Positions 39,570 through 46,317 of a stretch of 64,000 nucleotides of DNA are shown one piece after another. How positions within the stretch are numbered: position 1 is the first letter of the stretch; each line of letters opens with the position of its first letter. Both the position numbers and the translations under genes were made by a program. The notes under the pieces are model-generated. The model did not search any database. It was not told the DNA's origin and saw only the letters and a list, made by a program, of their open reading frames with translations. Source of the DNA: Thermoplasmata archaeon (GTDB lineage: Archaea; Thermoplasmatota; Thermoplasmata; Lutacidiplasmatales; UBA184); contig JAKIVS010000002.1 of assembly GCA_022750435.1 (NCBI GenBank), forward strand, positions 124,001 through 188,000, in the 5' to 3' direction.

Positions 39570-40457
39570 CTAGGCGGGGGAACCGGGCACGGCCGCGGGG
39601 CCCGGACGGCGAACCCGACGACGGCCCCCGCTCGCGGGGTCGGAGGGAAACTCGGAGCGGAGCAGGAGGTCGAGAAGTCGGTCGTGCTTCCGCTCGTCCG
39701 ACACCATGCTCTCCCACAGGATCCGCATGACTCCGCCGAACCGCTCTCCCGGGTCCCCCGCGGAGCTCTCCTCGGCGGCGTGCTCCCGGGCGATGAGGCG
39801 GCGGACGTCGGCGCGGGTGATTCCGGAGGGAACCGTCCGCGAGATCCCGCGGTCGAGGTAGGCGGCCAAGGCGGCCACGATCTCCGCGTGCCGGAGGCTG
39901 TCGGAGGCGATCTGGCGGAACACCGCCCGCGTCAGTTCGTCGCGCGAGCGTTGCGCAAGGCGCATGCATTCGGTGACGGCGGCCTGCTCCCCGGCGATCC
40001 GGTGGTGGATCCAGGCCGCATCCCCCCGTCGGGTCTGGGCGCTCGACGGCTCGGTGGGCGATCCGCCCCGGCGGCGTTTCCCGGTCGTTCCCGAGAGCTC
40101 CATCGCCGTCTCGAGCAGCGCGGCCGTCGCCGTGTGGCTCCCCTTCGCGGTGACGAGCCGCTGGGCCGCCTTGCGGACGACGCCGCGGACGCGCTCGTCG
40201 GATTCGAAGGCGGTGAGAGCACCGCGCAGGCGCTTTCCGGAGAGGTACTGCGAGACGGCGGACGGCACGAGGCCGAGGGCCTCCGCCGCCTGTCGCTCGG
40301 AGAGGCCGAACCCCTCCACGAGTTCCCGCGCGATCAGTCCCTGGGCGACCTGGACCCACTGGCCCGCGGACGGCGCACCCGACGGCACGGGGGGCGGAGC
40401 GGGGCGAGATTCATAGGGTCTGCTCCCCGAATCACGCGGGTGTTCACACTGTGACAT
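39570..40457 (-). CDS. HTH regulator fused to a ferritin-like domain
   Basis: A 295-aa two-domain protein. Residues about 33-110 resemble the COG2522-type archaeal HTH: LIARELVEGFGLSERQAAEALGL followed by PSAVSQYLSGKR as the recognition helix. Residues about 145-270 form a four-helix bundle of the ferritin/rubrerythrin class, with HHRIAGEQAAV (helix A), SDSLRHAEIVAAL (B), AREHAAEES (C) and SDERKHDRLLDLL (D). Several diiron-type Glu/His ligands are visible, but helix B has Ser where ExxH is usual. It is divergent from a ZIP transporter with 68 bases between, so iron- or metal-dependent control of that gene is the natural inference. Confidence 0.8.
   Translation of the reverse strand: MSQCEHPRDSGSRPYESRPAPPPVPSGAPSAGQWVQVAQGLIARELVEGFGLSERQAAEALGLVPSAVSQYLSGKRLRGALTAFESDERVRGVVRKAAQRLVTAKGSHTATAALLETAMELSGTTGKRRRGGSPTEPSSAQTRRGDAAWIHHRIAGEQAAVTECMRLAQRSRDELTRAVFRQIASDSLRHAEIVAALAAYLDRGISRTVPSGITRADVRRLIAREHAAEESSAGDPGERFGGVMRILWESMVSDERKHDRLLDLLLRSEFPSDPASGGRRRVRRPGPAAVPGSPA
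40444..40454. promoter_or_regulatory. Palindrome TCACA-C-TGTGA at the regulator start codon
   Basis: An 11-bp perfect inverted repeat lying in the first codons of the HTH-ferritin gene. It could be an autoregulatory operator. Confidence 0.35.
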
Positions 40458-40466
40458 TTGCGCGCA

Positions 40467-40481
40467 CCGGCATCACGCCGG
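40467..40481. promoter_or_regulatory. Palindrome CCGGC-ATCAC-GCCGG in the divergent promoter
   Basis: A perfect 5-bp inverted repeat with a 5-base spacer, placed between the regulator start and the TATA-like box of the ZIP gene. It is a candidate site for the HTH-ferritin regulator. Confidence 0.4.
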
Positions 40482-40489
40482 AGCAGAGG

Positions 40490-40496
40490 TTATGAA
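40490..40496 (+). promoter_or_regulatory. TATA-like box of the ZIP gene
   Basis: GTTATGAAC is centred about 33 bases before the ATG at 40526. The complementary strand (TTCATAACC) may serve the divergent regulator. Confidence 0.5.
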
Positions 40497-40525
40497 CCGT
40501 ACTCCGTAGGCGCCCCCGTCCTCGC

Positions 40526-41290
40526 ATGCTCGGGTTCCTCGAGTTCGTCCTCCTGTCCGCCGTGATGGGACTCTCGATCTTCCTCTCCCTGCCCATCGTC
40601 CTGCATCCCCGCTCGGGCGGTCGGATCGGCGTCGTGCTCAACGCCGCGGCGATCGGGATCCTCCTGTTCCTCCTCGCCGATATCTTCAGCGATGTGGCGC
40701 CCCTGATCGCGAGCCCGACCACGGCGTTCCTGACCGTCCCCTCGCGGGACGTGGCGTTCGCCGTGCCGTTCGTGCTCGCCTTTCTCGTCCTGGTCCTGAT
40801 CGACGACTCGCGGGGACGCACCCGCGCAGTCTCCCCCGCGTGGACCGCCTTCGTCATCGCGGTCGGGATGGGACTTCAGAACCTGTCGGAGGGCCTGGTC
40901 TTCGGGTCCGCATGGGCCGCCGGCGCGGTCGGTCTGCTCGCCGTCGTCTTCACCGGCTTCCTCCTCCAGAACATCACCGAGGGGTTCCCCATCGCCGCCC
41001 CGTACCTCGGGGCCGAGCGGAAGCCGCTCGGGCTCCTCATCACCCTGTTCCTCGTCGGAGGGCTTCCGACGATCGTCGGGGGCATTCTCGGGTACTTCTA
41101 CAACTCCGCGGTCCTCGACCTCGCCTTCGACGGCGCGGCGATGGGCGCCATCGCCTACGTGCTCCTCCCGATGCTGAAGGCGGCGTTCCGACCCGCCGAC
41201 ACGCCGGAGAAGACGGCGCAGCGCCTCCGGCTGCTCTACTTCGGCGTTCTCGCCGGGTTCTTGCTCGGGTTCCTCGTCAACGCGGTCTGA
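40526..41290 (+). CDS. ZIP-family (GufA-like) metal transporter with His-to-Gln substitutions
   Basis: A 254-aa permease of the ZIP family, normally importing zinc, iron or manganese. About eight TM helices are visible. TM4 carries GMGLQNLSEGLVFG and TM5 LLQNITEGFPIAAPY, the positions of the HNxxEG metal-site motifs. Both His are replaced by Gln while Asn and Glu are kept. A Gly/Pro-rich helix (GGLPTIVGGILGYF) follows. Loss of both His may alter metal preference. A TATA-like box 33 bases upstream suggests an almost leaderless mRNA, and the divergent HTH-ferritin protein is the obvious candidate regulator. Confidence 0.85.
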   Translation: MLGFLEFVLLSAVMGLSIFLSLPIVLHPRSGGRIGVVLNAAAIGILLFLLADIFSDVAPLIASPTTAFLTVPSRDVAFAVPFVLAFLVLVLIDDSRGRTRAVSPAWTAFVIAVGMGLQNLSEGLVFGSAWAAGAVGLLAVVFTGFLLQNITEGFPIAAPYLGAERKPLGLLITLFLVGGLPTIVGGILGYFYNSAVLDLAFDGAAMGAIAYVLLPMLKAAFRPADTPEKTAQRLRLLYFGVLAGFLLGFLVNAV

Positions 41291-41311: not shown

Positions 41312-43150
41312 CTACCGGGAGAACGACGGTCCACTGGACCGGGCGGGGCTCGACGCCCCGGAAGCCGCCACGCGGGCCGGAGCCGCCCGCTTGGTCGCCA
41401 TCGGGAGGCGCGTGTCGACCGGCGGGTGCAGCGGGTCGGCGAAGCGTCCCCGCAGCCAGTGGCGCACGTCGGAGAGGTACATGTTGCCGTACGGGCACGC
41501 TCCGACGCAATCCCCGACGCCGCAGCACTTCGCACTCCGGAACTCTCCCTTCGCCCGGAAGTGCTGCGGCATGTCGATGAGGCCGACCGGGCACGCCTTC
41601 GCGCATTCCACGGTCGTGCACGCCTGGCAGACGGCGCGGTCCTTCACCTTGAGCTTGAAGAAACTGACCTTGGTGAACAGTTGGCTGAAGGAGCCCCAAT
41701 GGCAGAACCCCGTCGTGACGCAGTTGTAGTTCCCGACGTACGGGATCGACACGAACATCACGAACCAGAGCGCGCCGAAGTACAGCTCGAACGGGAGCAT
41801 GGCCGAGTCGAAGTCGTTGTTCTGGAACTCGACGCCCGGGAGCAGGTGCAGGTACGGGAGGAACGACGTGCCGAACAGGGAGACGAGCGCGAGGCCCGAG
41901 GCGACCGAGTAGGCGGTGGAGAAATTGCTGCCGAGGAAGATCTTGCCGATCCGGGAGGTCCGGTTGAACGACCGCATCTCGTGGATCGTCGCCGCCTGGT
42001 ACATGATGGCGGCCCCGCACATCACCGAGCAGAGCGCCCGGCGCCCGAACAGGACCGTCAGGATCCCGACGGAGAGGTACATCAGCAGGATCGCGCCGAA
42101 GAACGTCGGGGCGAACGGTCCACCGGTCCGGATCCCCATCCCCCAGCCGATCACGGGGATGTTGGCGAGCAGCGAGTTGCTCACGAGCGGGGTCTTCGTC
42201 CAGAAGCTCGGGATGTAGACGACCGCGACCGCGTAGACCCCGATCATGAGGCCCAGTCGGGCCTTCTGCTCGCGCTCGCGCGTCTCGCGGATCTTCAGGA
42301 CCACGAGGGAGCCCATCTCGGCTCCCATGAGGATGAGGAACCATGCGGACACCGTGGTGCCCGCGATGAACCAGAGGGCATCGAACAGGGCGTTCGGCAC
42401 CGCCATCGCGCCGACCCCGGTATAGGCGAGGAACGGGAACTGGGCGAGGTAGACCCGGCCGTAGATCGCGACGTCGAGCGCCGCGCCGAGGAACAGCTCC
42501 GCGAGGAAGATCGCGCAGAGCATCTGGAACGCCCAGAACGGCTTCATCAGCCAGGAGAACCGGTCGTTGTCCTCCAGGGCGGGAGGCCGCACGGCGACGG
42601 AGAGGAACACGAACGTCTCGGCGAGCGCCGCGAGGGCGACGACGAGCGGGCTCTGGAACACGACCCAGAGGAGGAGGCCGAAGCCCGCCAGGGTTCCCGC
42701 GGCCGCGAGCCGCACCATCAGGCGAGCGACCGGAACGTGGAGCTGCTTGTTCCGGTACATGAACAGCATCAGGAAGACGAACTGGGCCACGAGGACGAGG
42801 CTCGCGGCGAGCACGGCGGGAAGCGTCCAGGCCGGCGCGACGACGGCGGCGGCCGACAGGGCGACCACCGCGGGTGGGCAGAGGAGCAAGGTCCGCCACT
42901 CGCTGGCGAGGGTGCGGATCGACAGCAGCCACATCGCCCCCATGACGACGGCGAGGGGAGCGAGGAAGTACGGCGATCCCAGCGCAGCACCGGCCGCCTC
43001 GGACCCTCCGAGGGGGAGGGTGCCCGTCACGGTCCGGGCGACCCACGCGGCGAGGAAGGTCGCGCCCCCGACGAGGGCGAGGAAGAGAGGCGCCTCGAAG
43101 GTCGGACGGATCCGGGCAGCCTTCGACCGAAGGACCACCATCGTGGCCAC
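41312..43150 (-). CDS. Polyferredoxin-type membrane iron-sulfur protein
   Basis: A 612-aa membrane protein with about twelve TM helices and a C-terminal cytoplasmic ferredoxin domain. NYNCVTTGFCHWGSFSQLF with the following SFFKLKV resembles the NapH/NosR-type CxxxCP region (COG0348). CQACTTVECAKACP and CCGVGDCVGACP are two cluster-binding motifs, probably [4Fe-4S]. It may pass electrons between a quinone pool and ferredoxin-like partners. GTG 43150 is the first conventional start, but it cuts the first TM helix in half. In-frame sequence upstream to 43216 completes it (AVDAAAAATLVAGVALALVA), so the real start may be a CTG at 43216 or another non-AUG codon. Confidence 0.82.
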   Translation of the reverse strand: MATMVVLRSKAARIRPTFEAPLFLALVGGATFLAAWVARTVTGTLPLGGSEAAGAALGSPYFLAPLAVVMGAMWLLSIRTLASEWRTLLLCPPAVVALSAAAVVAPAWTLPAVLAASLVLVAQFVFLMLFMYRNKQLHVPVARLMVRLAAAGTLAGFGLLLWVVFQSPLVVALAALAETFVFLSVAVRPPALEDNDRFSWLMKPFWAFQMLCAIFLAELFLGAALDVAIYGRVYLAQFPFLAYTGVGAMAVPNALFDALWFIAGTTVSAWFLILMGAEMGSLVVLKIRETREREQKARLGLMIGVYAVAVVYIPSFWTKTPLVSNSLLANIPVIGWGMGIRTGGPFAPTFFGAILLMYLSVGILTVLFGRRALCSVMCGAAIMYQAATIHEMRSFNRTSRIGKIFLGSNFSTAYSVASGLALVSLFGTSFLPYLHLLPGVEFQNNDFDSAMLPFELYFGALWFVMFVSIPYVGNYNCVTTGFCHWGSFSQLFTKVSFFKLKVKDRAVCQACTTVECAKACPVGLIDMPQHFRAKGEFRSAKCCGVGDCVGACPYGNMYLSDVRHWLRGRFADPLHPPVDTRLPMATKRAAPARVAASGASSPARSSGPSFSR

Positions 43151-44735: not shown

Positions 44736-45215
44736 TCAGGCCGGGAACCACTCCGCCACGTCGAACGTCCCGACCGCGCGGGCCCCGTGGGCCGTGCCGG
44801 AGGAGGCTCCCGCCTCCCCCCGTCGTCCCCGAAGGAACGCCCGGGTCTTCTCGCGGTGGCAGCGGTGGCAGAGCGTCTGCAGGTTCGCCGGGTCGAGGGG
44901 GGCCCCCCCGCGGGCGATCTCGACGATGTGGTCCACTTCGAGCTGCGGACGGCGATACCGCCGATGGCACGCCTGGCAGGTGAACCGGTCCCGGTGGAAC
45001 GCGTAGGTCCGGGCGGCGTCCCAGAAGTAGCCGCCCTGGAACCGCCATTGGCAGAGCCGGGAACAATAGGGAGTGCGGCGGGACTCGAGGGTCGCGTGGC
45101 AGGCGACGCAGCGGCGGGCGAGCCGGGCCTCGCGCTTGAGGCGGGTCCCTTCCGAGAACCACCGGGCCGAATCCCGGATCAGCCGGGACGGGCGGGTCGA
45201 CCGCAGGCTCACCAC
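44736..45215 (-). CDS. HNH-family endonuclease
   Basis: A 159-aa protein. A first zinc-binding pair CVACHATLE with YCSRLCQW lies at about residues 38-60. Next is a canonical HNH domain: CQACHRRYRRPQLEVDHIVE, GGAPLDPANLQTLCHRCHREK. It holds His, Asn and the two CxxC zinc pairs. Such solitary HNH proteins act as nicking or double-strand nucleases in defence, repair or mobile elements; the role here is unknown. GTG 45215 (or the adjacent GTG) lies about 30 bases after AAGATATTTC, a good TATA box, so the long upstream frame is rejected. Confidence 0.85.
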   Translation of the reverse strand: MVSLRSTRPSRLIRDSARWFSEGTRLKREARLARRCVACHATLESRRTPYCSRLCQWRFQGGYFWDAARTYAFHRDRFTCQACHRRYRRPQLEVDHIVEIARGGAPLDPANLQTLCHRCHREKTRAFLRGRRGEAGASSGTAHGARAVGTFDVAEWFPA

Positions 45216-45354
45216 CGCCGTGACTTCGTCCGGCGGTCGAAATATCTTGCCTTCCAGCGGACCCGGCGGGTCGCACCGACGGGAGGGGGTGGCCCGATGG
45301 GGCGGTGAGTCGGAGGCGAGGAGGTTTTCTTTCTGCCGGCCCGACGCGGGAGCG

Positions 45355-46317
45355 ATGTCGTTCCCGCTGGGGGAGTGGATCGATGCCCGGGAGCACCTCC
45401 CCCACAACCTGGGTTCGAGCGGAATGAAGGGCTCCCTCCGCTCCCTCGCCACGACGCTGCGCCATCTTCCGCCGTCCGACCCCGACCAACTTCGCCGGCG
45501 GCTGGCCCACGGCGTCGGGGTACCGGCCGACGCCCTCTTCCTGACCCACGGGGCCAGCGAAGGGAATGCCCTCGTGCTGCACCACCTCGCGCGCGAGCTC
45601 CGCGACGCGCTCGGCCGCCGGCCGCGGCTGCGCGTCGAACGGCCGGAGTATCCCCCCATCCCCGACACCGCCGTCCTCGCCGGGTTCGCCGTCGTCCCGG
45701 GGGACCGGACGGCCGACGCGGCGGCGCTCTCGGCCCCGAGGAACCCTCTCGGGACCCCCGTAGGACCCGGGGAGCTCCACGAGCTTGGCGACGGGATGCG
45801 GGCGCTGCTCGTGGACGAGACGTTCCGGGAGTTCCGGGACCGTCCCTCGGCGGCGGCTGCCCGGCGTCCCGGCCTCTGGACCACGGGAACGTTCACCAAG
45901 GCGTACGGAGCCGACGAGATCCGGGTCGGCTACGTCGTCGCCCCTCCGGAGGGGGTCGAATCGTTCGCCCGCTTCCACGGACTCGCGACGGACCGGGTGG
46001 CCGCCCACTCCGTCGCGGCCGCCCTCGCCATTCTCCGCGACCGGCGGACGATCCTCGCCGAGGTGCGCGGGATCTTTCGTGCGAACGAGCGCGCCCTCCG
46101 CGCCGCGTTCCCCGACCTCCCTCCCCTCGGTGCGCCCGTCTGGCTCGACCGTGGGGTCGACGGGGACCGTCTCGCCCGACGGGCCGAACGGGCGGGGGTG
46201 CTCGTGTCCCCGGGTTCGTTCTTCGGGGCTCCCCGGTCGGTGCGGATCACCCTCACGCGGCGGACGTTTCCCGCCGACCTCGCGGCGTACCTCGCCGTCC
46301 GGCGGACCCTGCGTTAG
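45355..46317 (+). CDS. HisC-like class I/II aminotransferase
   Basis: A 320-aa PLP enzyme of the compact HisC/CobD-like type. LPHNLGSSGMKGSLRSLA at the N-terminus, LTHGASEGNALVLHHLA, LVDETFREFRD and TTGTFTKAYGADEIRVGYVVAP with the PLP Lys near residue 186 are visible. The pattern of histidinol-phosphate or threonine-phosphate-related enzymes is present, but the N-terminus is short and the substrate unknown. ATG 45355 lies about 27 bases after a T-rich box (TTTTCTTT), so the frame to 45073 is rejected. The 3' end overlaps the next convergent gene by four bases (TTAG). Confidence 0.85.
   Translation: MSFPLGEWIDAREHLPHNLGSSGMKGSLRSLATTLRHLPPSDPDQLRRRLAHGVGVPADALFLTHGASEGNALVLHHLARELRDALGRRPRLRVERPEYPPIPDTAVLAGFAVVPGDRTADAAALSAPRNPLGTPVGPGELHELGDGMRALLVDETFREFRDRPSAAAARRPGLWTTGTFTKAYGADEIRVGYVVAPPEGVESFARFHGLATDRVAAHSVAAALAILRDRRTILAEVRGIFRANERALRAAFPDLPPLGAPVWLDRGVDGDRLARRAERAGVLVSPGSFFGAPRSVRITLTRRTFPADLAAYLAVRRTLR

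Follow-up and report, generated by a model that had tools for sequence, protein, structure and literature searches.

The window, by which we mean the whole 64,000-nucleotide stretch of Thermoplasmata archaeon DNA that was analysed (genome G000), contains a gene for a protein joining a helix-turn-helix (HTH) domain to a ferritin-like domain, referred to here as the fusion, and a divergently transcribed gene for a ZIP-family metal transporter (Table 1). The two genes lie 68 nucleotides apart as annotated, in line with the original prediction, but the gap becomes 137 nucleotides if the fusion starts at GTG 40388 and not at ATG 40457, which sequence comparison indicates is probably the case. Of the 59 sequences in the fusion alignment, 35 have Met at column 24 and 10 have Val. 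In L063, the closest relative, an ATG stands at this column with an in-frame stop codon upstream of it, and in the window a TATA-like box lies 27 nt upstream of GTG 40388; the start was therefore placed at 40388. With this start the intergenic region contains both of the repeats described below, and the copy of TTCAC-N3-GTGAA sits in the promoter, upstream of the gene. An operator within the coding sequence was rejected on the same column 24 alignment and the upstream stop in L063. Residue numbers of the fusion protein are counted from ATG 40457 throughout.

Table 1. Features of the fusion and ZIP transporter locus (positions refer to the window).
Feature	Coordinates	Strand	Remarks
HTH-ferritin-like regulator gene	39570..40388	-	probable revised start GTG 40388, 272 aa; earlier ORF from ATG 40457
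XRE-like HTH domain	40203..40367	-	residues 31-85 numbered from ATG 40457; recognition segment SAVSQYLSGKR
Ferritin-like helical domain	39657..40043	-	residues 139-267; E157, S187 (replacing Glu), H190, E225, E255, H258
TATA-like box TATGAAT	40409..40415	-	putative assignment; 27 nt upstream of GTG 40388
Operator palindrome TTCAC-ACT-GTGAC	40443..40455	+	predicted; 9 of 10 to TTCAC-N3-GTGAA; centre 40449
Third operator half-site TCAC	40473..40476	+	predicted; 24 bp from palindrome centre
CCGGC-ATCAC-GCCGG	40467..40481	.	outer arms not conserved; inner ATCAC contains third half-site
ZIP promoter TATA-like box TTATGAA	40490..40496	+	putative assignment
ZIP-family metal transporter	40526..41290	+	QN..EG motifs where HN..EG is usual

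Pfam analysis of the window fusion protein gave weak matches to HTH_3 (E 0.0015) and Rubrerythrin (E 0.0038), both under the cut-offs, and its sequence alone retrieved antitoxin HTHs as the best solved structures (E >0.1). The family identities of both the fusion and the ZIP became clear because relatives were scanned, the single-sequence Pfam matches being weak or absent. HTH_3 was matched by 36 of the 51 fusion members scanned (best 1.1e-6) and Rubrerythrin by 31 of 51 (best 1.5e-5), and the predicted structure placed an HTH ahead of four helices in the ferritin-like part (mean pLDDT 88.7, pTM 0.59), bearing out the fusion of HTH and ferritin-like domains that had been proposed from the window sequence. 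The HTH is a putative member of the COG2522 type. Foldseek searches with the model were weak (best E 0.28), returning mostly ferritin-superfamily entries among the 50 matches listed with TM-scores normalised to the fusion model of at most 0.24, so that the four helices are best regarded as a candidate single bundle at this pTM and strength of fold match. Neither the Fe_dep_repress and Fe_dep_repr_C domains nor PF01475 (Fur) appeared among the Pfam matches of the window protein and the 51 members.

A search of 150 related genomes for relatives of the fusion gave a match of some kind in 84, HTH-only ones included; ZIP relatives were matched in 82 of the same number. The nearest named relative, one of two found by contig scan, was Thermoplasmata archaeon MAG AcS13-54 (79% identity). 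Across 400 genomes of the class, the full-length matches among those listed came from family f1, with two from f11 (G112, G144) and one from f25 (G167), and most other matches listed comprised the HTH part only, in frames that were mostly some 100-160 aa long and distributed over many genomes of the class.

Mapping of the gene neighbourhoods showed that homologues of the fusion adjoined a metal transporter in 55 of 69 distinct loci and in 11 of 11 further loci from previously unused genomes, counts that are not independent as the genomes are mutually related. The 69 loci are those with a detected 5' part of the fusion (70 minus the duplicate L166; L126, L128 and L131, with this part undetected, lie outside the set), and L066, L123 and L129 were reassigned by hand from no neighbour to ZIP. 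The adjoining transporter was a ZIP in 48 loci (upstream and co-directional in 22, divergent in 25, downstream in one), NRAMP in six and NicO in one, while in six the fusion instead adjoined a PF14518 gene ('iron-containing redox enzyme' family) and the remaining eight had no recognised metal neighbour or reached a contig edge. A ZIP was the neighbour in all 11 further loci, although those of G266 and G394 look like near-copies. On a tree built from 61 fusion sequences, with poor support for 14 of its 58 inner branches, the NRAMP label required five changes and that of a second ZIP subtype (ZIP2) six, and the transporters therefore appear to have been swapped repeatedly while the regulator stayed; L099, where the NRAMP gene lies about 3 kb off with another ORF between, was tagged NRAMP by hand in this tree and carries no neighbour in the locus count.

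Several loci departed from the common arrangement. L081, L084, L085, L090, L091 and L092 form one clade with the fusion directly downstream of the PF14518 (Haem_oxygenas_2/TENA-like) gene and with no transporter, and in five genomes of this clade (G001, G002, G039, G060 and G063) an unlinked ZIP has a site scoring 8-9 of 10 to the operator described below. In G042 the fusion lies beside a NicO nickel/cobalt transporter (L077 3516-4715), and a second, split copy (L126) is divergent from a ZIP. NRAMP proteins usually carry DPGN near the N-terminus; L106, L252, L254 and other NRAMP genes have WLVMIADVDAAS at this position. The Nramp match is at 3e-38 for L106 and at 2e-34 for L252. Proteins with a 4Fe-4S dicluster domain were encoded near the fusion in L101 (4806-7010) and, with a C-terminal domain weakly matched by Pfam, convergent with the ZIP in the window (41312-43150, minus strand). 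Elsewhere in the window an HNH endonuclease ORF (44736-45899, minus strand) overlaps an aminotransferase ORF (45073-46317, plus strand); their Pfam domains do not overlap and the HNH gene is therefore probably shorter than its ORF.

The window ZIP had no Pfam match of its own, PF02535 being matched by 27 of 38 ZIP members, and all eight of its Foldseek matches with E ≤0.001 were BbZIP structures (best 4.8e-6). ZIP metal sites usually carry motifs of the HNxPEG/HExPEG type, with His. The window protein resembles BbZIP and ZupT in fold and family but has QN..EG (QNLSEG and QNITEG) where HN..EG is usual in these transporters; its description as a ZIP without His was accurate for the metal site, although one His occurs elsewhere in the protein. 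Members of the ZIP2 group carry HN..EG.

Two repeats had been singled out in the window, and only one of these proved to be conserved in relatives. A dyad scan of the regions upstream of 70 fusions was topped by TCAC-N3-GTGA, found in 30 of 70 against about 3% expected for the same loci, with TTCAC-N3-GTGAA (16 of 70) first among 5-mer dyads. The TCACA-C-TGTGA repeat of the window is a copy of this element, and its reported overlap with the fusion start is probably an annotation artefact. The other repeat, CCGGC-N5-GCCGG, was rejected as an operator as it occurred in two of 70 upstream regions (the window and L063), and, with a spacer of 3-7, CCGGC/GCCGG was present in five of 70, close to an expectation of 4% per region; present as it is in the window, it encloses the third half-site of the operator.

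Operator placement tracked the transporter promoter across changed gene orders. When the ZIP was upstream and co-directional the predicted operator was mostly at the ZIP promoter and not at that of the fusion, and it was also found at ZIPs and NRAMPs unlinked to a fusion. The promoter scoring omitted transporter rows that had an upstream stretch of <120 nt or missed the 5' part, and two NRAMP loci appear in it twice (L156/L191 and L109/L166). A score of at least 9 of 10 was reached by 43 ZIP promoters (L038 and L176 from fusion-less genomes), six ZIP2 promoters and nine listed NRAMP rows, with L109 and L166 among the nine being one locus. The 49 ZIP and ZIP2 promoters, picked without reference to a third half-site, had a third TCAC at 24 bp from the palindrome centre in 35 cases, at 23 bp in 11 and at 18 bp in one, with none in two, against at most five of 49 for each of seven other 4-mers at this position, and eight of the nine NRAMP rows had it at 22-23 bp. 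The TATA-like box began most often 15 nt after the start of TCAC (25 of 47). About 11 nt separate the end of the third half-site, beside the BRE region, from the TATA box, and the palindrome is farther upstream. In the 11 further loci the palindrome scored 9-10 of 10 in eight and 8 of 10 in three, and the third TCAC was visible in nine, missing in L204 and L211.

In 24 loci listed, the site centre lay 27-81 nt upstream of the regulator start (commonest about 40 nt), or 100 nt in one, and self-control is therefore plausible. Regions upstream of the PF14518 (HDO) and NicO genes had no operator (6-7 of 10), and the f11 loci were without TTCAC-N3-GTGAA (7 of 10). The intergenic regions of f11 loci L129 and L130, both with a divergent ZIP, contain TTAAC-N3-GTTAT-like repeats that resemble the f1 operator with A in place of C, and the f11 recognition-helix sequence differs too; the variant, seen in two loci, is no more than suggestive.

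Searching for the extended form of the site (TCAC-N3-GTGA-N17/18-TCAC) identified 78 places in 103 family genomes, distributed over 63 of these, against four for the reversed control. Separately, 78 distinct extended sites were collected in the loci examined, a set that overlaps the genome places without one-by-one matching, and 65 of these lay 30-420 bp upstream, on the same strand, of a ZIP (45), ZIP2 (7) or NRAMP (13). The other 13 were not so placed. Among these 13, the site of G309 precedes a solute-binding protein gene followed by an ABC permease gene; all ten solved-structure matches of the binding protein were iron ABC binding proteins, but the permease matched no iron model and had a sub-cut-off phosphonate permease as its best NCBIfam match, which leaves the substrate uncertain. 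The G019 site ends at a contig edge, the near-identical sites of G266 and G394 include one (G394) that precedes a PKD-domain protein, and three sites inside predicted genes look like chance. The window genome has seven exact TTCAC-N3-GTGA sites, with the extended form only at the window site.

Conservation of the ferritin-like domain was assessed in 61 aligned sequences (59 fusions and two distant f11 relatives), from which 11 fusion-match loci that were partial or lacked a usable start (L063, L068, L071, L124-L128 and L131-L133) were excluded. Residues E157, S187, H190, E225, E255 and H258 were invariant throughout, with the f11 fusions at 24-31% identity to those of f1 (24-25% to the window protein over the full alignment). 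Five of six ferritin-type ligands are thus kept, and the first ExxH reads SxxH in 61 of 61. When profiles were aligned to a designed diiron protein and to mini-bacterioferritin, S187 fell at the position of the bridging Glu in the first ExxH, and the mini-bacterioferritin alignment placed E255 and H258 on the second; the fusion profile matched mini-bacterioferritin (9qq4) at E 0.0029. In the predicted model (pTM 0.59) the ligand positions are borne by four helices, and C164, near-invariant with 56 of 59, shares a helix with E157 at a distance of seven residues. By sequence, the metal site would be ferritin-like with a bridging Glu changed to Ser; the ligand pattern expected of a metal site in the bundle is conserved and metal binding itself is predicted.

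These observations are probably best explained by the fusion acting as a one-component, metal-responsive transcription regulator of metal importers through a three-part DNA site, and our best reading is that it regulates ZIP and NRAMP importers and is new as a family. In the proposed mechanism the XRE-type HTH, in a dimer or a larger assembly, would bind TTCAC-N3-GTGAA and the third TCAC, which shortly precede the TATA box of importer genes. These genes encode both ZIP subtypes, NRAMP and, in a single genome, an ABC importer with an Fe(III)-like binding protein. The ferritin-like domain would take up a divalent metal at an altered dimetal-type site, with Ser in place of one bridging Glu, and metal occupancy would alter DNA binding. 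In divergent loci the operator is also upstream of the regulator's start, which would permit self-control.

Alternatively, the ferritin-like domain may sense oxidant or oxygen through metal-peroxo chemistry and not metal level, opening or shutting import under oxidative stress. Ferritin-like diiron sites do react with O2 and H2O2, the near-invariant C164 close to E157 would suit such chemistry, and one fusion clade is linked to a PF14518 gene, but a standard ferroxidase site is disfavoured because the bridging Glu is an invariant Ser. The recognised neighbours and operator-bearing genes were also mostly importers, no peroxidase or SOD being noticed at the extra sites inspected, and we consider oxidant sensing unlikely. 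It seems quite unlikely that the helical domain instead serves only as a scaffold for dimerisation, holding at most a structural metal, with a small molecule or partner protein as the signal. Such a role would agree with the weak similarity to solved ferritins and the altered ligand set, but not with retention of all five remaining ligands from f1 to f11 despite the low identity, nor with targets that are metal importers from unrelated families.

Whether the fusion itself recognises the operator was addressed by co-occurrence, scoring a site of at least 9 of 10 at a ZIP, ZIP2 or NRAMP gene once per f1 genome. The predicted operator was present in 51 of 60 fusion-bearing but three of 16 fusion-less genomes (Fisher p 1e-6), a contrast that persisted at completeness of at least 80% (38 of 44 against 0 of 11) and of 90% (21 of 26 against 0 of 8). 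Demanding 10 of 10 weakened it to 30 of 60 against two of 16 (p 0.009) and, for completeness of 90%, to 8 of 26 against 0 of 8 (p 0.15). The nine exceptions among fusion-bearing genomes had best sites of 7-8 of 10, and the three fusion-less genomes with a site were all at most 73% complete. Fusion-less, site-less ZIPs required eight changes on the ZIP tree, at least six of which were forced by well supported branches.

A further alternative is that some other regulator, of DtxR type or not, binds the operator, the HTH-ferritin gene being merely a co-regulated iron protein. Of the 95 f1 genomes listed, 84 do have a gene with the DtxR C-domain (PF02742), and the operator fronts the fusion gene too in many loci. 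It is improbable, however, that such a regulator is responsible, as the operator tracks the fusion and not DtxR (48 of 66 genomes with PF02742 against four of seven without, p 0.40; three genomes outside the PF02742 listing omitted), eleven fusion-less genomes with a PF02742 match are without the operator, G065, G068 and G081 have fusion and operator with no PF02742 match, Fur had no over-threshold match in the 56 f1 genomes searched, and the simplest binder is the HTH protein adjoining its operator. The idea that the fusion replaced DtxR was also discarded: weak matches to the DtxR N-terminal domain in f1 (best 1.4e-6, few above cut-off; no Fe_dep_repress match in the window genome) had suggested loss, but the 84 genomes retain the PF02742 gene. 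The DtxR-type gene of f1 has a clear metal-binding C-domain and an Fe_dep_repress N-domain that is barely matched.

Returning to the fusion as metal-responsive regulator, the metal-control module of HTH-ferritin regulator, ZIP and cis element in the original prediction is strongly supported by adjacency, operator, co-occurrence and invariant ligands. The domain type and the presence of an iron-like importer in one of the regulons would make Fe(II) the likeliest ligand, followed by Mn(II). Palindrome and half-site together, upstream of BRE/TATA, resemble archaeal activator sites in placing, and because of this position activation under metal shortage fits slightly better than repression, the regulator with an empty metal site then driving the importer genes; repression through blocking of TFB is possible. 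We lean towards the more specific view that a ferritin-type dimetal site, with Glu changed to Ser, has turned from enzyme into direct Fe(II)/Mn(II) sensor and controls unrelated importers (ZIP, NRAMP and Fe(III)-like ABC) via a three-half-site element abutting the archaeal BRE/TATA, which would constitute a new transcription factor class.

Direct metal sensors of transcription in prokaryotes use a limited number of folds (DtxR, Fur, NikR, ArsR, MerR, CsoR and a few more). DtxR, MntR and IdeR are one-component regulators that exert metal-dependent control over NRAMP/ZIP-type uptake through palindromic operators, and the fusion is alike in its proposed one-component control of such uptake and in its predicted palindromic operator but has another HTH and another sensor domain, and the DtxR C-domain sits in a separate gene in most f1 genomes listed. 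The archaeal regulator ThiR, of the COG2522 type, joins an HTH to a ThiN sensor; the fusion shares this plan of a short XRE-like HTH and a C-terminal ligand domain, although its C-terminal domain is ferritin-like and its targets would be metal importers. With the ferritin-like/rubrerythrin superfamily (mini-bacterioferritin 9qq4, EncFtn 5n5e) the fusion has the E...xxH...E...ExxH pattern in common, differing in the Ser for one bridging Glu, the attached HTH and the weak sequence and fold matches. Metal-binding helical bundles as sensory or input domains, as proposed for the fusion, also occur in FBXL5, an E3 ligase subunit with a hemerythrin-like iron sensor, and in MbfA, a ferritin-like/VIT1 fusion that is a membrane transporter, neither of which is a transcription factor. 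A full-text literature search, judged by titles and abstract starts and with subscription journals mostly outside its scope, found no HTH-ferritin or HTH-rubrerythrin regulator among the matches listed, and searches of the ThiR and archaeal DtxR/NRAMP literature listed no paper apparently on this protein type. A term search of the main text of PMC9287336, on Lutacidiplasmatales genomes, did not find 'ferritin', 'zip' or 'iron'.

If our interpretation is correct, a ferritin-like sensor would add a fold to the DNA-binding metal sensors and would show a redox enzyme site becoming a sensor, and the fusions of one Thermoplasmata family would make up a new family of gene regulators that respond to metal. 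This archaeal family thereby gains a defined, predicted operator and regulon and a directly testable protein-DNA-metal system.
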